Positions 31,242-44,337 of a stretch of DNA of 64,000 nt are shown here, one piece after another. The notes beneath the pieces were generated by a model. It ran no database searches. It was not told the DNA's origin and was given only the letters and a program-made list of their open reading frames with translations. Position 1 is the first letter of the stretch, and the number at the start of each line of letters is the position of its first letter. The translations under genes and the position numbers were made by a program. Source of the stretch: Hyperoplus lanceolatus. Lineage: Eukaryota; Chordata; Actinopteri; Uranoscopiformes; Ammodytidae. The stretch spans positions 30,188,501 through 30,252,500 of the forward strand of contig CM049410.1 in NCBI GenBank assembly GCA_026929865.2, written 5' to 3'.

Positions 31242-32502
31242 AATTAGATATGATTTTGGATTCAATAAAAAAAAAACGCCCTGTTATTCCAGAGTCATTC
31301 CACTCCAGGGTCATAGTTCACAACCCCATGAGGTCCCCCAAGAACTTTCAGGACATTCTGATGTGTAGTTTCAAAATAAAAGCCCACTAGATATTGAAAA
31401 TATGAGAGAAATTAGATATGATTTTGGATTCAATTTTTAAAAAAACTCCCTGTTATTCCAGAGTCATTCCACTCCAGGGACATAGTTCAAGACCCCATGA
31501 GGCCACACAAAAAGTTTCAGGACATTCTGATGTGTAGTTTCAAAATTAAAGCGCACTAGATGTTGAAAATATGAGAGAAATTACATATGATTTTGGATTA
31601 AATTTTTTAAAAAACGCCCTGTTATTCCAGAGTCATTCCACTCCAGGGTCATAGTTCACGACCCCATGAGGCCACAAAAACAGTTTCAGGACATTCTGAT
31701 GTGTAGTTTCAGAATAAAAGCCCACTAGATATTGAAAATATGAGAGAAATTAGATATGATTTTGGATTCAATTTTTAAAAAAACTCCCTGTTATTCCAGA
31801 GTCATTCCACTCCAGGGTCATAGTTCACGACCCCATGAGGCCACACAAAAAGTTTCAGGACATTCTGATGTGTAGTTTCAGAATAAAAGCCCACTAGATA
31901 TTGAAAATATGAGAAAAATTAGATATGATTTTGGATTCAATTTTAAAAAAAACGCCCTGTTATTCCAGAGTCATTCCACTCCAGGGTCATAGTTCACAAC
32001 CCCATGAGGTCCCCCAAGAAGTTTCAGGACATTCTGATGTGTAGTTTCAAAATAAAAGCCCACTAGATATTGAAAATATGAGAGAAATTAGATATGATTT
32101 TGGATTCAATTTTTAAAAAAACGCCCTGTTATTCCAGAGTCATTCCACTCCAGGGTCATAGTCCACGACCCCATGAGGCCACACAAAAAGTTTAAGGACA
32201 TTCTGATGTGTAGTTTCAAAATTAAAGCGCACTAGATATTGAAAATATGAGAGAAATTAGATATGATTTTGGATTCAATTTTTAAAAAAACGCCCTGTTA
32301 TTCCAGAGTCATTCCACTCCAGGGTCATAGTTCACGACCCCATGAGGCCACACAAAAAGTTTCAGGACATTCTGATGTGTAGTTTCAGAATAAAAGCCCA
32401 CTAGATATTGAAAATATGAGAGAAATTAGATATGATTTTGGATTAAATTTTTAAAAAAATGCCCTGTTATTCCAGAGTCATTCCACTCCAGGGTCATAGT
32501 TT

Positions 32503-33260
32503 GAAAGTGGACTCCTGATTAATGACATAAGCGACCATTTACCTGTTTTTGCTATATACGATTGGAAACAAAAGTTGCAGCAGAGAACAAACAAAGAGAT
32601 ATTTGTAAGGTTGGAAACTGATGAGAGGATAGAAGCACTGAAAAATGACTTATTGACGCAAAGTTGGGACTCTGTATACAAGGGGAAGGATGTTAATGCA
32701 AGTTTCGATTTATTCCTGCAGATATTTCAAAGGCTGTATGATAAAAATTGTCCACTTAAAAAAAGGGCCTTAAAGCAAAGACATGATAAACAGTGGCTAA
32801 CTAAATCCTTGATAAATGCTTGCAAAAAGAAAAATACATTGTACAAAAGATTCATAAAAGCAAGGACACCAAAGGCGGAGTTAAAATATAAAATCTATCG
32901 TAACAAGCTAAATAACATTCTCAGAGACTGTAAAAAGAAATATTATGGTAAGTTGTTAGAAACAAATGCAAATCAACCCAAAAAATTGTGGGACATAGTA
33001 AATACAGTGTTAAGAAATGACAGCAGAATACATAATTATCCTCAGTATTTCCATGAAAATAACGTTAAGTTTGAATGCATGAACACTGCGGTAAATAAAC
33101 TAAATGATTTTTTTGTTAATATTGGACCTAATTTAGCAAAAGGGATCTGTGGGAAGGGTGTAGGGGAGTCTAGTGAAAAAGAAGCGTCTCTTCAACACTC
33201 CTTGTTTTTGAAGCCAGTCGAGGCCAACGAGATAAGGGAGATATTGCTTGGAATGAAAAC
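32503..33260 (+). pseudogene. LINE ORF2, end of endonuclease and linker
   Basis: The frame is open from the truncation point. The first residues include SDHLPVF (32,530-32,550), the terminal SDH-type motif of APE-like endonucleases. The rest is the lysine-rich linker seen before the reverse transcriptase of Jockey/L2-group elements (for example NKLNNILRDCKKKYYGKLLE). The methionine at 32,575 is internal and not a true start. The frame runs into the DIRS element at 33,260, and the 12 codons after that are DIRS sequence. Joined across the DIRS insert it continues in frame into 39,626. Confidence 0.88.
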
Positions 33261-33300
33261 GATAGTTACGTATGTAACTACGGTTCTATGAGTTCCGGAT

Positions 33301-33446
33301 GACCGCCAGAGGCGGTGCTTATAGCACTGGATATTCCATTGCGCGCATGCGCAGGTCGAGATCTTTATACCAACAAAGTCACCTGTGACACCCGGGTGAC
33401 TCCAGGAATGTCTATATATTCCGGAAGTCACCAGAGGTTCTGTTCC
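33301..33446 (+). repeat. DIRS inverted terminal repeat (right ITR on the coding strand)
   Basis: It runs from GACCGCCAGAGGCGGTGCTT to AGGTTCTGTTCC and appears identical to the reverse complement of 39,461-39,606 over all 146 bp. The unique outer extension 33,261-33,300 starts GATAGTTACGTATGTAACTA, itself a partial palindrome. Confidence 0.93.
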
Positions 33447-33490
33447 ACTGGATCTTCTCGCGGTGTCTGAGAAGTCTGAGTGACAGAGAA

Positions 33491-33592
33491 CTCTGGCGGT
33501 CATCCGGAACTCATAGAACCGTAGTTACATACGTAACTATCGTTCTATTTCGTTCCTACTGACCGCCAGAGGCGGTGCTTATAGCACTGGAT
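33491..33592 (-). repeat. DIRS internal complementary region (ICR)
   Basis: 33,491-33,541 is the reverse complement of the element's outer left edge on plus (33,261-33,311). 33,545-33,592 is the reverse complement of its outer right edge (39,575-39,622). The two halves meet at GTT (33,542-33,544), the complement of the AAC found at both insertion edges. This is the layout that in DIRS-1 is thought to template the circular intermediate. On the coding strand it sits between the recombinase gene and the right ITR, as in known DIRS elements. Confidence 0.9.
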
Positions 33593-33661
33593 GACTTATA
33601 CCAAAACGGTCACGAAGAGTACTCATCAATTAAGGGCTTGCAGCCATCAACAAGACAGCTG

Positions 33662-34888
33662 TCATTCCACCGGATGAGGTGCAGCAACATTTACTCTGTA
33701 GAGCCGCGCAACGTACATGATGAAGACCATGTAGCCGTGGCGCAAATGTCCTGCCGTGAAATCCGCTTCAAGGCAGCCCATGATGTAGCCATACTCCTGG
33801 TAGAGTGGCACTCAACGGCCAAGGCATGGGGAGCCCCTGTGCTCTATATGCATACAAGACCACATCCACAAGTCAGTGGGAGTGTCTCTGTTTGGACAGG
33901 GCAGCCCCCTCCCTGCGGCTCCCATAGCAGACAAAAAGGTATTTGTCTTACGCAAGCTGGTTGTTGCCACAACCTATGCCCTAAGCGCCCGCACCGGGCA
34001 CAGTGGGTCTGACATTCTTTCTGCACCCCCTGGTGAGCCCAGGGGATTGAAAGCAGCCAACTCGATCGATTGGTTTACATGGTGGGGAGACAATCGTTTG
34101 GATAGGAAGGATGGAGTTGGCGAGAGCACCACTCCTGACCCTTCTACATGCCAGCGCAAGCACGCCTGGCTTACTGACAAGGCATGGAGTTCACCGACCG
34201 ATTGCAGTCGCAATGGCAAGGAGGAATGCCGTCTTCATCGACAGCCGCGTCAGGTCTGCCTGACTCAGCGGCCCAAATGGGGGTAGTCCTAAGGCCCTCA
34301 GGACTACTTGCAAGTCCCCTGATGGTGCCCTCAGGGGTCACGGTGGCTGAATGAAGCCTCTGGCCTCCCTTCAGAAACTGCCTGACTAGGTAGTGGGACC
34401 CTACCGTCTGGTTATCCACCCCTGCATGTGCGGCCGATATCACAGCCACATAGACGCACAGGGTGGAAGCAGCTCTCCTGGTGCCCACACAGACTGCAGA
34501 AGTGTGGTATCACTATCACTGAGCAAGTCCATGGGACTTCGCCATGTGCCATGCACCGCTGTGAAAACGGCTTCCACCTGTTTGCATAGCGCCATGTAGT
34601 GGAGAGTGCCCCTGAAGTCAGAAAGGTATGGACCTCTGACTGGTCGCAATACGTCAACAGTGGGTCCTGGCTACCAGGAGCCCCACGCACAGCTGCAGGC
34701 GCCCCGAGTTCGGGTGCCACATGTGTCCGCCTACCTGAGACAGAAGGTCCTGTCTCCCTGGAAGGCACCAAGGCTCTCCTTGAGGAGTTTAGTAACGCTG
34801 GGATCCATGGCCTTCCTGGCCAATGTGGAGCCCCCAAACGTAGGCTGTAACTGCAATGCTGGACCCCATCCAGTGTTGTCAGTAACAA
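33662..34888 (-). pseudogene. DIRS tyrosine recombinase relic
   Basis: Read on minus, several shifted frames together give a DIRS recombinase. About 34,600-34,520 has STTWRYANRWKPFSQRC, and about 34,475-34,345 has ASTLCVYVAVISAAHAG then LVRQFLKGGQRLHSA; both belong to the SAM-like N-terminal part. About 34,210-33,980 has VGELHALSVSQACL followed by DPLCPVRALRA. 33,840-33,780 has VECHSTRSM, the HxxR motif with His at 33,805-33,807 and Arg at 33,796-33,798. About 33,765-33,722 has KRISRQDICATATWSS, and ARLYRVNVAAPHPVE with the nucleophile Tyr ends at a stop at 33,662. The first catalytic Arg, expected just before VGEL, reads Ser (about 34,200). At least three frameshifts are needed to join the parts. 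An upstream stretch near 34,750-34,700 (DLLSQVGGHMWHP) resembles the end of the DIRS RT/RNase H region. Confidence 0.85.
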
Positions 34889-34889
34889 A

Positions 34890-35300
34890 AGCTATACACA
34901 TAGTGTGTGGCCCGGCTCATCCACTGGCAAGCAATAAGTAAGCTATGCACGCAAGGCTTAGGTGAGAGCCCACGCTGGTGGGACACAGCTCAATACACAG
35001 TGAAAGCGACTTCTGACCCGAAGCCGCCCACTTGACGAGCAAATTAGTAGCCTATGCAACCGCTCTAGGCGACAATGCTACAAATACTGTGGCGGTGGCT
35101 TGGCTCACCCCAAGCCACTCGCTGTCGATTAAATCAAAGTAAGCAACCGGTCTAGGCGGAACTTAGCACCCGATCACAGTGCAACAATGCTAGAAAGACA
35201 ATACATTCGAGCATACAATTAGCAACCGGGCTTAGTGAAAAACACACAAGCAACGGTGCGAAGGAAATGCACAAAGCAGGATGACTGGCCAAGCACTAGC
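34890..35300 (-). repeat. Leader-type tandem repeats inserted in the DIRS pol region
   Basis: This stretch separates the RT relic from the recombinase relic, where RNase H would be expected. It is closely related to the repeats at 38,213-38,400, 38,458-38,640 and 38,998-39,180, sharing TCGCTGTCGATTAAATCA, GCACCCGATC and GCAACAATGCTAGAAAGACA. No RNase H motif was seen. It looks like leader sequence copied into, or recombined with, the pol region. Confidence 0.75.
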
Positions 35301-35517
35301 CAGAGCATCCTGCCTTAGGGGACTGGTCCTCTCCATCTAGGAGAACCCAGGGGGACAGTGGGTCATCTCTTCGGAAGCAAAGAGATATGCCACTGCCCTG
35401 CCATACTTGTCCCAATCATGCCCACCACCTCCGGATGGAGTCTCCACCCCCGGGGGTGGCCCTTTTCTATCGCTGTGTTCCGGACACCTGGAACTTGGAC
35501 AGCTTGGATAATGATAA

Positions 35518-36366
35518 TTAGAATATGCTGAGGTCAGCATACTTATCAGTCGAAGGGAGAGGCTGTACTCCAGCAGCCTCCATTGCATGGAGTGCTGTAG
35601 TAGCTGCTGAACGGTAGCTACGCGCTATGGAGAAAGGCAGGCTCGCATGGCCGCCGACTCGAGCACTAGCTGAGCTGTAATGGTGGCAGGGATGCTGCCG
35701 CACACTGTATAATATCCGCAGAGCCAGGGACGGCCCAAACGGAGGAACCCTGAACCGGTACACCCTGCCCAGAAATGCAAAGGGGAGGACCACCTGTGAC
35801 ATTGGGCAGTAGGGACTTGAAAGTAGCATCTTTCAGGGCTATGACACAACCCAGTCCGCCTGAGCGATAGACTGGAGGACCCCTGCAACACGCAGCATGG
35901 GGAAAGGAAGAATCGTGAGGCATTGATTCCGCCGTCTTAGTCCAGAACGGGGCGACCCCGCCCCACCTCCTGGTACCTGAACTTCGGTTGAGTAGAACCT
36001 ACCGAGCATCGAGTAGCACCCCCAAGGACTCTGGGGGAGGGCGGAGGCTGGACGCCGACCTCCTGGCGCCTGAAATGCAGCTGTAGCGCAGTGTACGGCG
36101 CTGTACAGAATGTGCTGAGAAGCACTGGCCCCTTGATTGTCCACCTGAACGTGGTCGAAGCTATTGGCACGGGGTACCACAGAGGTTCCCGGCCTGGAAT
36201 CAGGCAGAGGTACACGTCGCAGCGTGTAACTACTGTTTAGCCTGGTCAACCTGAACACTTCGCACCTGGCCTGAAGAGCAGCTGGCCGAACGCCTGGCCT
36301 GGGATCACTGGAAGAGAACGGAGGGTCTGTCGACACACCTCCGACTGGGACGACTGCGCCAGCCAA
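35518..36366 (-). pseudogene. DIRS reverse transcriptase relic
   Basis: The minus frame at 36,366-35,839 ends with RSGLRRRNQCLTILPFPMLRV and QSIAQADWVVS, matching the DIRS RT segment normally of the form LDLR.LN..L..LPFRML..DWF. After a frameshift the next frame, at about 35,820-35,700, gives LPFAFLGRVYRFRVPPFGPS, the equivalent of the RFAF...Y.V.PFGL segment. The block that should carry the catalytic LDDW was not found downstream, so the catalytic core is lost or unreadable. The assignment rests on spacing and motif order and on its place upstream of the recombinase relic. Confidence 0.78.
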
Positions 36367-36377
36367 CCCTGGCGGCG

Positions 36378-36455
36378 CGCCTAGCCCTTTTCCTTGTGAA
36401 GCGCCCTTGGGTACCTTGAAAGGCGCTATATAAACTTCAAATTATTATTATTATT
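36378..36455 (+). repeat. Short LINE/SINE 3'-tail-like insertion
   Basis: The text TTGTGAAGCGCCCTTGGG, then AAAGGCGCTATATAAA, then an (ATT)n run is the common form of fish LINE/SINE 3' tails. It is in plus orientation inside the minus-strand DIRS element, between the RT and gag relics. Its 5' edge and target duplication were not resolved. Confidence 0.6.
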
Positions 36456-36461
36456 AGCTCC

Positions 36462-36990
36462 CTAAGTCGTAATGCAAACCAGATGGCCCACACAGGCAGC
36501 AACGTCGTAACTCCTAGTAAGGAGGTCGCCTGAAATCCGGCACTGGGGCCGAGGGCAGCGCACATCGGCTCTCAGAGCCTCGTCTGGGGAGACAACCAGG
36601 GATGCTATAGCAGGCTCAATCGGAGCTAACCAGTCCGAGCCCTAACTATCAGCATTATGCATGGCTGCCAGAGCTCTGCTGTCACTAGTGTGATGGAAGA
36701 GAGCCCTTAAATCTGGCCAGCATCTACGGAGCTCAGCGGAATAAGGCTCAGAGGGAGGCACACAGACCGGAGGATTGAGGGCCTGCCGAAAGAAGGCATT
36801 CGTGGGTGCAGATGAAACCAGAGCTTCATCTAACCCCATACTTGCGAGACGGACACTGACCCTCTAGCGGATGCCTGAGACATGAAACTACAGTTCATGC
36901 ATGGGTTATCTGACAGCGCTTCCCTCAGGTGCTCAACCCTGAGACCTGCAGGGCACTTGTCGTGGCCATTCCCCACTGTCGAGCCAACTA
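36462..36990 (-). pseudogene. DIRS gag-like relic
   Basis: Minus frames contain PPSEPYSAELRRCWPDLRAL (about 36,755-36,695) and, lower down, VVSPDEALRADVRCPRPQC (about 36,594-36,538), continuing as DLLTRSYDVAACVGHL before a stop. Such segments occur in ORF1 (gag) of fish DIRS elements, and the position upstream of RT on the same strand agrees. Stops and at least one frameshift separate the parts. The family match is from memory of motif style and is less certain than the recombinase. Confidence 0.6.
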
Positions 36991-39240
36991 AATATGCATC
37001 TGACTAGGGTATGCAACCGGGCTTCAGGCGAGAACAACCGAGCCGCGGCGCGACACCGCCAGAATAATACAGCGGCGGTGCAAAACTATAGCGCCCACTG
37101 GCGAGCAAATTACAGTAGCCTGCACAGACGACAACCGTGTGTACAGCTAAATAACACAGGAAGGCGACTCTTGGAAACCCAAGACGCTCCCTGGCGAGCA
37201 ACCAACGTATGCAACCGGGCTTTAGGCGAGAGCAACCGAGCCTCGGTGCGACACCCATGGACATATAAGAAGGGCGATACCGTTAGAATAATACAGTGGC
37301 GGCGTACAACTACGCCCACTGGTGAGCAAGTTACAGTAACATGCTAGAATTTAGCCAAAAGTCGAGCCAGCTAAAATATGCATCCGACTAAGGCATGCAA
37401 CCGGGCCTCAGGCGAGAGCAACCGAGCCACGGTGCGACACCGCTAGAATAGCACAATGGCAGTGTAACCCTGCCGCCCACTGGCGAGCAAGTTACAGTAG
37501 GCTAGGCAATCGAGCTCTAGGCGAGAGCACACCCAAGCAACGACGCGACCTGTCGAGCCAATTAAAATATGTAATCCGAATAAGGTATGCAACCGGGCTT
37601 CAAGCGAGAGCAACCGAACCACGGTGCGACACCGCTAGAATAACACAGTGGCGGTGTAAACTATGCCGCCCAATGGCGAGAAAGTTACAGTAGGCTAGGC
37701 AATCGAGCTTTACGAGAGCGCACCCACACAGTTCAATTGAATTCAGTCTACTTAAGAAGGGGACAGTGCAAATCAATAAACCACATGATCATACATGGGT
37801 TAAAAAATGCTAGAATAGCCAAATGCTATTCTCCATCTGCAGTCCCCTGGCAGTGTCAGCGGCTCTTGGTGACGGCAACGACGTTCACTGGTGAGCAATT
37901 AAGTAGCCTATGCAGTCAGGCTAAGGCGTGAGCTACCGTGCAACACGGCTATAATAACACAGCGGCACAGACACGACACCCGTGCCGTGAAACTAAGCTG
38001 CCAACTGGCGACACACTACAGCAGCCTACACACGAGCAACAGTGTGACACGGCTAACATAACACGGTGAAGGCGATTTAGGAAACTAATTCGTCCACCGG
38101 CGAGCGATACAGCAGCGTACAGTGTATAACAGCATACCAGTGTGTGGCACGGCTCACCCACTGGTACGAGCAAATTAAGTAGCCTAACCGCTCTAGGCTA
38201 CTCACAATGCTACAAAGTACTGTGGCGGCGGCTTGGTACCCCCAAGCCGCTCGCTGTCGATTAAATCAAAGTAAGCAACCGGTCGGGGCGAACGTAGCAC
38301 CCGATCAACAGTGCAACAATGCTAGAAAGACAATACATTCGAGCATACAATTAGCAACCGGCTTAGCGAAAAACACACAAGCAACGGTGCGAACAACAGT
38401 GAAAGAGGCTTCTGACCCGAAGCCGCACCTGACGAGCAAATTAAGTAGCCTATGCTACAAAGTACTGTGGCGGCGGCTTGGTACCCCAAGCCGCTCGCTG
38501 TCGATTAAATCAGAGTAGGCAACCGGTCGGGGCGAACGTAGCACCCGATCAACAGTGCACAATGCTAGAAAGACAATACCTTCGAGCATACAATTAGCAA
38601 CCGGGCTAGCGAAACACACAAGCAACGGTGCGAACGAAAGAATAACACGGCGACTGTGAACCCAGCCGCCGCCTGATCTAATCAAACAAGCCTATGCAGT
38701 CAGGCTAAGGCGTGAGCTACCGTGCAACACGGCTATAATAACACAGCGGCACAGACACGACACCCGTGCCGTGAAACTAAGCTGCCAACTGGCGACACAC
38801 TACAGCAGCCTACACACGAGCAACAGTGTGACACGGCTAAATAACACGGTGAAGGCGATTTAGGAAACTAATTTGTTCACCGGCGAGCAATACAGCAGCA
38901 TACAGTGTATAACAGCATACTAGTGTGTGGCACGGCTCACCCACTGGTACGAGCAAATTAAGTAGCCTATGCAACCGCTCTAGGCTACTCACAATGCTAC
39001 AAAGTACTGTGGCGGCGGCTTGGTACCCCCAAGCCGCTCGCTGTCGATTAAATCAAAGTAAGCAACCGGTCGGGGCGAACGTAGCACCCGATCAACAGTG
39101 CAACAATGCTAGAAAGACAATACCTTCGAGCATACAATTAGCCACCGGGCTAGCGAAACACACAAGCAACGGTGCGAACGAAAGAATAACATGGCGACTG
39201 TGAACCCAGCCGCCGCCTGATCTAATCAAAGCAAGGTGGA
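36985..39240 (-). repeat. DIRS 5' leader made of complex tandem repeats
   Basis: GC-rich degenerate units repeat, with recurring GCAACCGGGCTTCAGGCGAG, GCGACACCGC, AATAACACAGTGGCGG and CACTGGCGAGCAA (for example near 37,014, 37,210, 37,398 and 37,588). The second half contains a larger duplication: about 37,914-38,640 matches about 38,694-39,200 over long stretches, a period near 780 bp. No coding motif is visible on either strand. On the coding strand this lies between the left ITR and gag, so it is an unusually long repetitive leader. Confidence 0.8.
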
Positions 39241-39460
39241 AAGGTGATATTAGCTTCCGCGGTAGCCTCGGGCTACGCGTAGCCTTCACACTTTACTCAC
39301 CCCTACCGGCCGCAGCCAAGTCGAACGAATTGCAAGTCGCAGCCCTTGGTGGTCGAAGTCAAATCGAAGCACCAACCCTTAGGTACGAGCTACTTGCGAC
39401 AAGCTAATGGTATATTAGCACACAACAATGTGTGCGACCTGCTTCCGCGAGAATATAGAA

Positions 39461-39606
39461 GGAACAGAACCTCTGGTGACTTCCGGAATATATAGACATT
39501 CCTGGAGTCACCCGGGTGTCACAGGTGACTTTGTTGGTATAAAGATCTCGACCTGCGCATGCGCGCAATGGAATATCCAGTGCTATAAGCACCGCCTCTG
39601 GCGGTC
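39461..39606 (-). repeat. DIRS inverted terminal repeat (left ITR on the coding strand)
   Basis: Reverse complement of 33,301-33,446 with no difference seen by eye. The outer unique extension 39,607-39,622 reads AGTAGGAACGAAATAG on plus and differs from the extension at the other end. Confidence 0.93.
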
Positions 39607-39625
39607 AGTAGGAACGAAATAGAAC

Positions 39626-41110
39626 AAAGACCTCTAGAGACGCGCTAGGGTTTCACATGAAAGTAATCAAATCAGTGCAAGAAACTATTATTAAACCGTT
39701 AACACACCTTTTTAACCTATCTTTTCAAACAGGCATTTTTCCTTCTAACATGAAAGTAGCAAAGGTTATACCATTACATAAGAATGGTGATGAACATTAA
39801 TTTACTAATTATAGACCAGTCTCACTTTTAACACAATTTTCTAAAATTCTGGAAAAGTTATTCAGCAATAGACTTGATGAATTCATTACTAAACATCAAC
39901 TTCTGTATGACAGTCAATTCGGCTTTAGAAAGAATCATTCCACCGCACTGGCCTTGGCTGAATCGGTAGAAATTATTAGTAATGCTATCGATCACAAATT
40001 GTACTCTATAGGAATTTTCTTAGACCTCAAAAAAGCATTCGACACTATTAATCATGACATCCTTCTTAATAAACTGGAGAATTATGGCATTCGAGGTTTG
40101 GCACATGACTGGGTCAGAAGTTATTTACATGACAGGAAACAATTTGTGAAATTAGGGGAGTTCACATCGACATGCTTAGATATTGTTTGTGGGGTCCCTC
40201 AGGGGTCAATCTTGGGGCCGAAATTATTCCTGCTTTATATAAATGACATATGTAAAGTGTCAAAAGTCTTAAGGTTAATTTTATTTGCTGACAACACAAA
40301 CATCTTCTATTCGGGGAAAGATCTGAATAATATGGTTGAGATCGTAAACATTGAATTGACTAAGTTACATGAGTGGTTAAACCGAAATAAGTTATCACTA
40401 AATTTAGAAAAAACTAAATTCATGATGTTTGGCAGGAGAGCATCAGATGTCGCTGTAAAAATCAAGGTAAATGGGATTGAAATTCAAAGGGTCAAGCAAC
40501 ACAAAGTCCTAGGGGTAATAATTGACGATAAATTAAGCTGGAAACCACAAGTTAGCCATCTCAGGGGCAAAATAGCCAGGAGTATTTCTATACTTTGGAA
40601 AGCACAACATTGTTTCAATCAAAAGGCCTTACTTGTATTATACTGGAGTTTAGTTTCCCCACATCTGCATTACTGTGCTGAAATATGGGGAAACACTTAC
40701 AAAGGTACATTGCACCCGTTGGAGATTCTTCAAAAGAAAGCAATACGAATTATTTACCAAGCCAATTACAGGGCACACACTAATAACTTTTTTATTGAAG
40801 GTAGAATTCTCAAATTACGTGATGTGGTAAATTACCACACAGTACAAATTATTTACAAGGCTTCAAAAAAAGCCTTCCAAACAGTTTACAAGTAATGTTT
40901 GAAGACAGAGAAGTTTTGCATGATTTAAGAAGAAAAGATAAATTCACTGAGAAAAATATACGGACCACACTTAAATCCTTTTCGATTTCTATAAAGGGTA
41001 TTAAGCTGTGGAATGGACTTGATGAAGTTGTCACAGGGAGTTGCAGTTTGCGCAATTTCAAAGCAAATTATGTTTCAAAAATTATTGAAAATTACAGACT
41101 AATAACCTGA
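39626..41110 (+). pseudogene. LINE ORF2, reverse transcriptase and C-terminus, lightly damaged
   Basis: It continues the frame of 32,503-33,260 directly after the DIRS insert. The RT motifs are in order: FTNYRPVSLL (about 39,801), FGFRKNHST (about 39,920), FLDLKKAFDTINHDILLNKL (about 40,014), GVPQGSILGP (about 40,190), LFADNTNIF (about 40,281-40,307) and KLSLNLEKTKFMMFG. Lesions are a TAA at 39,798-39,800, a frameshift in the A7 run at 40,865-40,871, after which the C-terminal 71 codons lie in another frame to 41,110, and an Asn codon AAC at 40,293-40,295 where the second catalytic Asp of the FADD box is expected. Polymerase activity should therefore be lost. Confidence 0.92.
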
Positions 41111-41414
41111 GCACAATGTCAATGTCACTTACATATCAATATTGTAAAGAATAATACAGGCCAGCTGTCAGACTTGTTTTTGAATACTTTTGCAGAAGTG
41201 TTTTGACTACCAGTTAAGAAATGGAACAGGCCAAATACAAGGCCACTTCACACTTTATACACTTGGCATTGTCACAGAGAAACTGAACTGTGCTGAACTG
41301 ATCTTAAAAGCTGAAGCAATTACATTAAAATTGATTGTGTATTGGACTGCAGATTCTTAAAAAAAAAAAATTTATGTGTATGTATGTGTATATATATGTA
41401 TATATATATATGTG

Positions 41415-41448
<34 letters not shown>

Positions 41449-41450
41449 TG

Positions 41451-41493
<43 letters not shown>

Positions 41494-41724
41494 CTATATA
41501 TAAAAAAAAAAAATGTTTTTTGTTTTATTTTTATTTTCTGTAACAGTAACTGTGTATCTGAATCCGAATTTGATGAAAATGGGGGCGGTACCTGATAAGC
41601 CTTTGGCTTCTTCCGTCTCCCTTCGGACAACACAAAGTATGATGTATGAATATTTTCAAGAGAAAATTGTGTATTGTGTGGAATTGTCCGAAAGAATAAT
41701 AAATAAATAAATAAATAAATAAAT
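41111..41724 (+). other. LINE 3' untranslated region with internal microsatellite and (AATA)n tail
   Basis: Non-coding sequence follows the ORF2 stop. About 41,373-41,492 is a TGTA/TA microsatellite between two A-rich runs. After it, unique sequence (about 41,520-41,695) leads into a run of AATA repeats ending exactly where the satellite resumes. Confidence 0.8.
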
Positions 41725-43818
41725 AGTTCACGACCCCATGAGGCCACACAAACAGTTTCAGGACATTCTGATATATAGTTTCAGAATAAAAGCCCACTAG
41801 ATATTGAAAATATGAGAGAAATTAGATATGATTTTGGATTCAATTTAAAAAAAAAACGCCCTGTTATTCCAGAGTCATTCCACTCCAGGGTCATAGTTCA
41901 CAACCCCATGAGGTCACCCAAGAAGTTTCAGGACATTCTGATGTGTAGTTTCAAAATAAAAGCCCACTAGATATTGAAAATATGAGAGAAATTAGATATG
42001 ATTTTGGATTCAATTAAAAAAAAAACGCCCTGTTATTCCAGAGTCATTCCACTCCAGGGTCATAGTTCACAACCCCATGAGGTCCCCCAAGAACTTTCAG
42101 GACATTCTGATGTGTAGTTTCAAAATAAAAGCCCACTAGATATTGAAAATATGAGAGAAATTAGATATGATTTTGGATTCAATTTTTTAAAAAAAGGCCC
42201 TGTTATTCCAGAGTCATTCCACTCCAGGGTCATAGTTCACGACCCCATGAGGTCACCCAAGAAGTTTCAGGACATTCTGATGTGTAGTTTCAAAATAAAA
42301 GCCCACTAGATATTGAAAATATGAGAGAAATTAGATATGATTTTGGATTAAATTTTTAAAAAAACGCCCTGTTATTCCAGAGTCATTCCACTCCAGGGTC
42401 ATAGTTCACGACCCCATGAGGCCACACAAAAAGTTTCAGGACATTCTGATGTGTAGTTTCAAAAAAAAATCCCACTAGATATTGAAAATATGAGAGAAAT
42501 TAGATATGATTTTGGATTCAATTTAAAAAAAAACGCCCTGTTATTCCAGAGTCATTCCACTGCAGGGTCATAATTCACAACCCCATGAGGTCACACAAGA
42601 AGATTCAGGACATTCTGATGTGTACTTTCAGGGTGACCTCATGGGGTGACCTCATGGGGTTGTGAACTTTGACCCTGGAGTTGAATGACTCTGGAATAAC
42701 AGGGCGTTTTTTTTAAATTGAACCCAAAATTATATCTATTTTTTCTCATATTTTCAATATCTAGTGGGCTTTTATTCTGAAACTACACATCAGAATGTCC
42801 TGAAACTTTGTGTTTGGCCTCATGGGGTCGTGAACTATGACCTTGGAGTGGAATTTTTCTGGAATAACAGGGCGTTTTTTTTTAATTGAATCCAAAATTA
42901 TATCTAATTTGTGTCATATTTTCAAAATTAGATATGATTTTGGATTCAATTAAAAAAAAAACGCCCTGTTATTTCAGAGTCATTCCACTCCAGGGTCATA
43001 GTTCACGACCCCATGAGGCCACACACAAAGTTTCAGGACATTCTGATGTGTAGTTTCAGAATAAAAGCCCACTAGATATTGAAAATATGAGAGAAATTAG
43101 ATATGATTTTGGATTCAATTAAAAAAAAAACGCCCTGTTATTCCAGAGTCATTCCACTCCAGGGTCATAGTTCACAACCCCATGAGGTCCCCCAAGAAGT
43201 TTCAGGACATTCTGATGTGTAGTTTCAAAATAAAAGCCCACTAGATATTGAAAATATGAGAGAAATTAGATATGATTTTGGATTCAATTTTTAAAAAAAC
43301 TCCCTGTTATTCCAGAGTCATTACACTCCAGGGTCATAGTTCACGACCCCATGAGGCCACACAGAAAGTTTCAGGACATTCTGATGTGTAGTTTCAGAAT
43401 AAAAGCCCACTAGATATTGAAAATATGAGAAAAATTAGATATGATTTTGGATTCAATTTAAAAAAAAATGCCCTGTTATTCCAGAGTCATTCCACTCCAG
43501 GGTCATAGTTCACAACCCCTTGAGGTCCCCCAAGAAGTTTCAGGACATTCTGATGTGTAGTTTCAAAATAAAAGCCCACTAGATATTGAAAATATGAGAG
43601 AAATTAGATATGATTTTGGATTCAATTTTTAAAAAAACTCCCTGTTATTCCAGAGTCATTCCACTCCAGGGTCATAGTTCACGACCCCATGAGGCCACAC
43701 ACAAAGTTTCAGGACATGCTGATGTGTAGTTTCAGAATAAAAGCCCACTAGATATTGAAAATATGAGAAAAATTAGATATGATTTTGGATTCAATTAAAA
43801 AAAAAACGCCCTGTTATT
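41725..43818 (+). repeat. Satellite array resumed after the LINE
   Basis: About 12 further monomers of the same A and B types, including an inverted block at 42,631-42,924. The array stops abruptly within a monomer at CCCTGTTATTCC, followed directly by the non-satellite text AAAATGCCTTTTCAGC. Confidence 0.95.
42631..42924 (-). repeat. Inverted satellite block in the distal array
   Basis: Same entry and exit junctions as the blocks in the main array, confirming that the arrays on both sides of the LINE were one array. Confidence 0.9.
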
Positions 43819-44337
43819 CCAAAATGCCTTTTCAGCGAGTTTTTACCAAGTATAAGACTAGAATATGTTTGTAAACCAAACTGTGGGCCCTTCTGCTGTA
43901 AACAACAACAGTGAAACAGTAACTTTTCAGGAAGCTTTCTAACTTCAAACAGTGTTCCAGGGATCACATTTTCCTGTGAGGAAAGTTTGTTTATTCAGTT
44001 ATGAGAATAAACCTTAGAAAATGTTTCACTTCTCTGACACACACAGAGTCACACACTGCAGCTTTAATATGTTTAAACCATGTTATTCATATAGTCACAA
44101 AGATCCAGTTTTTAGATATTTTTTATTGTTTTACATTCATTCATTTCAACAGGAACAAAGTGTGTGTGGAATGTCTGTCTCAGGAAGTCGCCTCTGCTGA
44201 TTTTCAGAGTAAAAGTCGCTTCTCGTCAGTTCTTCCAGCGGATTTGCTGAAAGAGAAGAAGAGAAGGTGTGATGTCATCAGTGAGGTCAGAGGGTTTTTT
44301 TTTCAATAAAACTTTATTGAAAAACAATATATACAAA
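43819..44337. repeat. Duplicated segment, copy 1 (first part)
   Basis: This segment of about 520 bp starts AATGCCTTTTCAGC and includes GTTCCAGGGATCACATTTTC and TGATGTCATCAGTGAGGTCA. It recurs at 48,838, 51,587 and, truncated, 53,197. This copy is interrupted by a TA-flanked element at 44,340 and continues at 45,464. The short frames in it are not supported as genes. Confidence 0.88.

Follow-up and report, generated by a model that had tools for sequence, protein, structure and literature searches.

A 6362-bp element on the minus strand of a 64,000-nucleotide stretch of the Hyperoplus lanceolatus genome (assembly GCA_026929865.2, contig CM049410.1, positions 30,188,501 to 30,252,500; this whole stretch is here referred to as the window) is most probably a young, non-autonomous DIRS1-like element, belonging to a family that is moved in trans by a coding relative or its kin. 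We put the probability of this reading at roughly 85%. The element occupies positions 33261 to 39622 (6365 bp when one AAC is included), with its 5' end on the right side, as delimited by the matches between its inverted terminal repeats (ITRs) and internal complementary region (ICR) and by empty copies of the long interspersed nuclear element (LINE) that hosts it. Because much of its coding damage is common to other copies, the window element appears to be a member of a helper-dependent family and not one decayed element.

Results

Ends, internal complementary region, and orientation

A self-comparison of the window identified the 3' ITR (33283-33463, minus strand) and the 5' ITR (39445-39622, minus strand). 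Positions 33283 to 33463 and 39445 to 39625 are 94% identical with gaps, and the exactly complementary run within the pair is 147 bases long (33300-33446). The ITR match starts at 33283, and outside it lies a right extension (33261-33282, minus strand) that is present in the 3' terminus and in the ICR and absent from the other ITR. The ICR (33491-33592) consists of the complements of both outer ends: 33491-33544 is complementary to 33258-33311 at 54/54 positions and 33542-33592 is complementary to 39575-39625 at 51/51, with the two halves overlapping on the GTT at 33542-33544 (AAC on the other strand). Its reverse complement reads contiguously as right end, one AAC, and left end. Perfect matches of 51 and 54 bases do not arise by chance.

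The element edges read GAATGAAAAC followed by GATAGTTACG on the left and GAAATAG followed by AACAAAGACC on the right. The AAC at the left edge (33258-33260) is the GTT that closes the element in its own orientation, and the AAC at the right edge (39623-39625) is the GTT that opens it, so that in the minus-strand reading the element opens with GTT at 39625 and closes with GTT at 33258. In published DIRS1-like elements, the ICRs are located at the 3' end (PMC3266345); since the ICR of the window element adjoins 33261, we place the element on the minus strand.

Insertion into the LINE

The host LINE is split into a 5'-truncated left part (32502-33260, plus strand), supported by the empty-copy matches, and a right part (39626-41722, plus strand) containing a reverse transcriptase (RT) domain (RVT_1, E = 1.7e-36) and an AATA tail. 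Excision of 33261-39625 leaves an open LINE frame with GMKTKTSRDALG at the join. A 400-nucleotide query made by joining 200 bp of LINE sequence from each side was searched against the fish's own genome (806.7 Mb), and all 40 places scored, from 499 first-look candidates, matched query positions 1 to 400 at 99% identity, each being 400 bases long. Six empty copies were read over 200 bp; none of the six differs from the join within the 60 bases displayed, and over the 200 bp they carry one mismatch (five copies) or two (one copy), with the mismatch at offset 19 common to all. The insertion gained 6365 bases, lost none, and duplicated only the AAC, as expected from a crossover at this triplet. 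The complete DIRS terminal architecture, the joining of the complements of the outer ends at GTT, the AAC at both edges without target duplication, and the restoration of the LINE upon excision had all been claimed in a preliminary description of this DNA, and they hold to the base.

A coding relative and the remains in the window element

A search with a degenerate pattern for the RT motif YLDDW yielded 102 genome matches versus 11 for the reversed pattern. The one match that was read (C1:859354) led to a coding relative at C1:855825-862045 (L053/L054), which is 6221 bp long and has its own ITRs and its own ICR. Its 356-amino-acid frame is gag by position and matches no Pfam family above the cut-off; its 793-amino-acid frame matches PF00078 (RVT_1; E = 7.6e-26) and PF17917 (RT_RNaseH; E = 5.7e-6) and is overlapped by a 977-amino-acid recombinase-like frame. 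This last frame appears to resemble the recombinases of fish DIRS elements. The relative thus contains both RT and RNase H, of which the window element has remains only.

Comparison of the relative's frames with the broken body by tblastn gave E values down to 6e-77. The 977-amino-acid frame of L053 detected tyrosine recombinase (YR) remains that are split across frames (33668-34834, minus strand) and carry the shared frame-shifting insertions and deletions (indels) described below. The 793-amino-acid frame detected what is left of the RNase H end and of the C-terminal part of the pol frame (34657-35503, minus strand). RT remains were found at 35524-36012 (minus strand); they lack the active-site stretch at about 35670-35675, and part of RNase H is missing at about 35503-35525. 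Gag remains at 36480-36970 (minus strand) were detected with the 356-amino-acid frame. Between the gag and RT remains, a stretch at 36410 to 36457 appears similar to the 3' tail of fish L2/short interspersed nuclear elements. An expanded 5' leader (36976-39235) is composed of repeated units of about 190 to 245 bp together with a 784-bp duplication; the leader of L053/L054 also contains related units, in the form of tandem repeats of about 218 bp (L054:1739-2397), although the broken family has a larger number of them. Leader-type repeats occur in part near the recombinase remains as well (34997-35267).

In the six frames of the window element, Pfam detected none of the RT, RNase H, or recombinase domains, and among ten window frames Pfam found the LINE RT and nothing relevant within the element. 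A YR-like fragment searched against the own genome gave 150 scored places of 684 candidates at 83 to 100% identity, and no coding element was found at the 20 of these loci that were compared with the element. Against viral_contigs, the same fragment gave 15 pattern stretches and no relatives, and the ITR core gave no matches.

Other copies and their edges

Other copies were sought in the own genome with the first 400 bases of the element; 40 of 1039 first-look candidates were scored, at 97 to 100% identity. The 20 best-ranked of the 39 others (L009 to L028) were compared, giving 21 copies when the window is included. L009, L010, and L011 are 99.3 to 99.7% identical to the window element over the full or nearly full length, and the remaining copies align with it for 1.1 to 3.6 kb, counted from the 3' end, with 95 to 97% identity (93% for L012) and differ in the 5' repeat region. 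The left end is preceded by AAC in 19 of the 20 copies, the exception being L027 with ACC; L011 has the AAC, but next to it a changed end. In 16 of the 20 a right end was located, with AAC in all 16, and none was found in L011, L013, L021, and L025. Among the 17 copies with both ends, window included, AAC is present at the right in 17 and at the left in 16, and the flanks differ. The base preceding the left AAC is A in 15 of these 17 (P = 2.5e-6, with a frequency of A assumed to be 32%). Across the genome, 520 occurrences of the terminal 23-mer were counted (none for its reversed control), 464 of which follow AAC; when ICR junctions are subtracted, 240 of 296 occurrences follow AAC. The exact ICR junction occurs 224 times. 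Copies with ends elsewhere, a target duplication, and protein matches to a non-DIRS family had been named beforehand as outcomes that would speak against the DIRS assignment, and none of them appeared as far as tested.

Two observations concern the surroundings of single copies. About 5 kb separates L013 (G000:C3:25878000-25886400) from a putative host gene of prion-protein type; the long open frame beside this copy is probably a host gene and not a coding element. The frames flanking L015 and L017 appear to resemble other LINEs, and nesting of element copies in LINEs may be common.

Coding damage shared between copies

In the recombinase region, comparison of the 21 copies with the coding relative revealed 39 distinct frame-shifting indels (L013 covered only 786 of the 1255 bases), of which 9 are present in at least 15 copies. 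The window element carries 10 of the 39, and none is private to it. The same RT stretch, including the active-site motif, is missing in 18/18 copies that retain the region, as is the same RNase H stretch (18/18); in L013, L017, and L019 the whole RT region is missing. Both absences are also found in L052. L051, which is less closely related, retains the RT core in broken frames, and three of its frames gave no Pfam match. Coding defects are common to separately inserted copies, as in a non-autonomous family, in a set of 21 that were selected by their similarity to the window. Judged by these comparisons, the proteins of the window element were not lost within this copy, and the damage is largely common to the family. 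The preliminary description had called the proteins dead, and the frames are indeed broken, but the phrase suggests one decayed element and understates how much of the damage is shared.

Conservation of the ends and ICR

The window element and the coding relative are nearly identical where the ends and the ICR are concerned: 101/102 bases agree in the ICR, 54/54 in the 3' terminus, and 50/51 in the 5' terminus, giving 205/207 in total. The remaining ITRs and spacer agree at 278/293 bases, and the two longest aligned stretches of body and leader agree at 1379/1624 (85%; Fisher P = 1.7e-11 for ends and ICR versus body), with other body parts being 73 to 86% identical or unalignable. Among the 100 listed ICR junctions of the 224, 15 are preceded by an exact RT motif at a distance of up to 6 kb, which in 14 cases is 2386 to 2410 bp. 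The other 85 of 100 are an upper figure for copies without RT, since altered motifs escape an exact match.

Within copies, the 3' terminus equals the copy's own ICR half in 18/21 and the 5' terminus in 16/17. A base variant, ATA in 4 copies (including the window) and ACA in 17, is the same in the left ITR and the ICR in 21/21 copies and is concordant in the right ITR in all 16 readable copies. Such concordance fits ends that would be rebuilt from the ICR.

Neighboring sequences

The LINE lies in turn within a 169-bp satellite (window positions 1-32501 and 41723-43821), which reaches 32501 and restarts at 41723, so that the nesting in a LINE within a satellite is as previously described. ATAGTT flanks the LINE on both sides and is possibly a short LINE target duplication, indistinguishable from the AATA tail. 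Every few kilobases, the satellite is broken by a recurring stretch of 30 bases that is built of a 13-bp unit, GGGTGACCTCATG. Between 48337 and 53173, the window contains several separate arrays of related minisatellites with a 21-bp unit, CTTGCATACTAAACGTGTGCC, and variants of it.

Discussion

The data presented here suggest how a family with broken proteins could continue to move. The coding relative or its kin would provide proteins in trans, and the RNA of the broken element would be copied. The ICR would then serve as the template from which the complete ends are restored and by which they are closed to a circle containing one AAC, and a recombinase would cross this AAC with a genomic AAC, usually within AAAC, leaving one AAC at each edge. 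Such a scheme has been proposed for DIRS-1, for which a circle has been reported and the route is described as not fully proven (PMC5633606). We further lean, with some reserve, toward the view that there is a separate class of parasites among DIRS elements. A family retaining the ends and the ICR alone would outnumber its coding partner, and the difference between 99% identity in the ends and ICR and 85% in the aligned body would map what a DIRS RNA needs in cis: the ICR and the two termini. RT and recombinase would be provided in trans.

Several points weigh against a trans-mobilized family. Mobilization in trans is inferred, and the compared copies are the best matches to the window, a choice that favors shared defects. 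In L010, L011, L014, and L027, one end differs from the copy's own ICR, and the concordant base variant may reflect a single event. The end of the relative's 977-amino-acid frame matches PF00589 only at E = 0.022, which is under the cut-off, and searching this frame against PDB by sequence gave one irrelevant match (E = 0.46). PF05869 (Dam-type methyltransferase) found no genome match among 35 candidates scored, with a model that may not cover DIRS methyltransferases. Finally, a single coding element was read, and another may be the helper. This last point bears on a variant in which the family is mobilized in trans by a coding DIRS family other than L053/L054. The 102 RT-motif matches cover several codings of the motif, which leaves room for such a helper; on the other hand, L053 agrees with the window element at nearly all end and ICR bases, and the RT motif recurs at the L053 spacing in 14 of the 100 listed ICR junctions, and we regard a different helper as unlikely.

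The shared defects bear on decay in place, in which an autonomous element would have inserted intact and decayed, with the other copies independently doing likewise. This is the usual fate of old transposon copies, and L051 combines an RT core with broken frames. Of the 39 frame-shifting indels, 17 occur in a single copy each, which also counts against the trans-mobilized family. None of the 10 indels of the window element is private, however, and the same RT and RNase H absences recur in 18/18 copies at independent insertion sites, with L009, L010, and L011 being nearly identical to the window element; independent decay is accordingly very improbable. Segmental duplication or gene conversion, instead of reverse transcription and integration, might have spread the broken copies, and conversion could equalize the ends and ICR between families. 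Against this stand the differing flanks of the 17 two-ended copies, with AAC at the right in 17 and at the left in 16, and the exact empty site of the window element, so that we give this route little credence overall, although single pairs may have arisen by it. That the element belongs to another recombinase group altogether (Ngaro-like, Crypton, or plain DNA transposon) could be argued from its six frames without a Pfam domain and from the sole PF00589 match in the own genome, L049 (G000:C2:1164843-1165064; E = 7.1e-4; 13 candidates scored), which we take to be Crypton-like. The terminal repeats, however, are inverted and not the split direct repeats of Ngaro-like elements, and they are accompanied by an ICR; furthermore, Cryptons have a recombinase without RT, whereas an RT-RNase H frame is present in the relative and its remains in the element. 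We consider such an assignment next to impossible.

A pair of broken and coding families with shared ends, 224 exact ICR junctions, and many empty target copies make parts of the proposed scheme readable from genome data. Such data could show which bases are constrained, whether the ends change along with the ICR, and at which point crossover takes place.

The ends, the ICR, and the insertion anatomy described here are of the known fish DIRS1-like type, and what goes beyond it is the helper-dependent family with its coding relative. As in DIRS1-like elements generally, the window element has ITRs and an ICR that is complementary to both outer ends and fused at the 3-bp circular junction, and it is inserted at a triplet equal to that junction without target-site duplication. 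For GaDIRS1 and GaDIRS2 of stickleback and TnDIRS1a of Tetraodon, Table 3 of PMC3266345 gives a divergent ITR of 19 to 21 bases, a conserved ITR of 144 to 148, a right extension of 26 to 27, and ICR parts of 36 to 46 and 56 to 57, close to the lengths of 17, 147, 22 to 25, and 51 and 54 in the window element. According to the same source, these elements share the GTT start and the AAC circular junction and end with GTT (GaDIRS1 and GaDIRS2) or GAT (TnDIRS1a). They are coding elements; in the window element, by contrast, the body is broken, stretches of RT and RNase H are missing, and the leader is expanded by repeats. The preliminary description held that DIRS elements are usually catalogued by their proteins; this needs correction, as PMC3266345 treats ends and ICRs in equal detail, and the DNA logic as such is therefore not new.

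DIRS-1 of Dictyostelium has in common with the window element the ITRs, the ICR, the proposed ICR-templated end repair, the circle, and integration by a recombinase (PMC5633606), but it differs in its junction triplet and its longer ITRs (PMC3266345, DIRS1-2 row). A search for "non-autonomous DIRS" and variant phrasings found no paper in an open-access library, with Repbase and most subscription journals lying outside the search. The idea of a non-autonomous partner nevertheless has a precedent, since SIRE, a non-autonomous relative of the trypanosome recombinase retrotransposon VIPER, has been published (PMC6681497). VIPER differs in that its repeats are direct and split and a DIRS-type ICR is absent, and SIRE measures a few hundred base pairs, in contrast to more than 6 kb for the window element. 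A similar division of labor is described for TRE5-A.2 of Dictyostelium, an enzyme-lacking retrotransposon served in trans by its coding partner TRE5-A.1 (PMC5633606). TRE5-A.2 is a non-long-terminal-repeat element with a different integration chemistry, and hence the parallel with the family described here is one of logic only.

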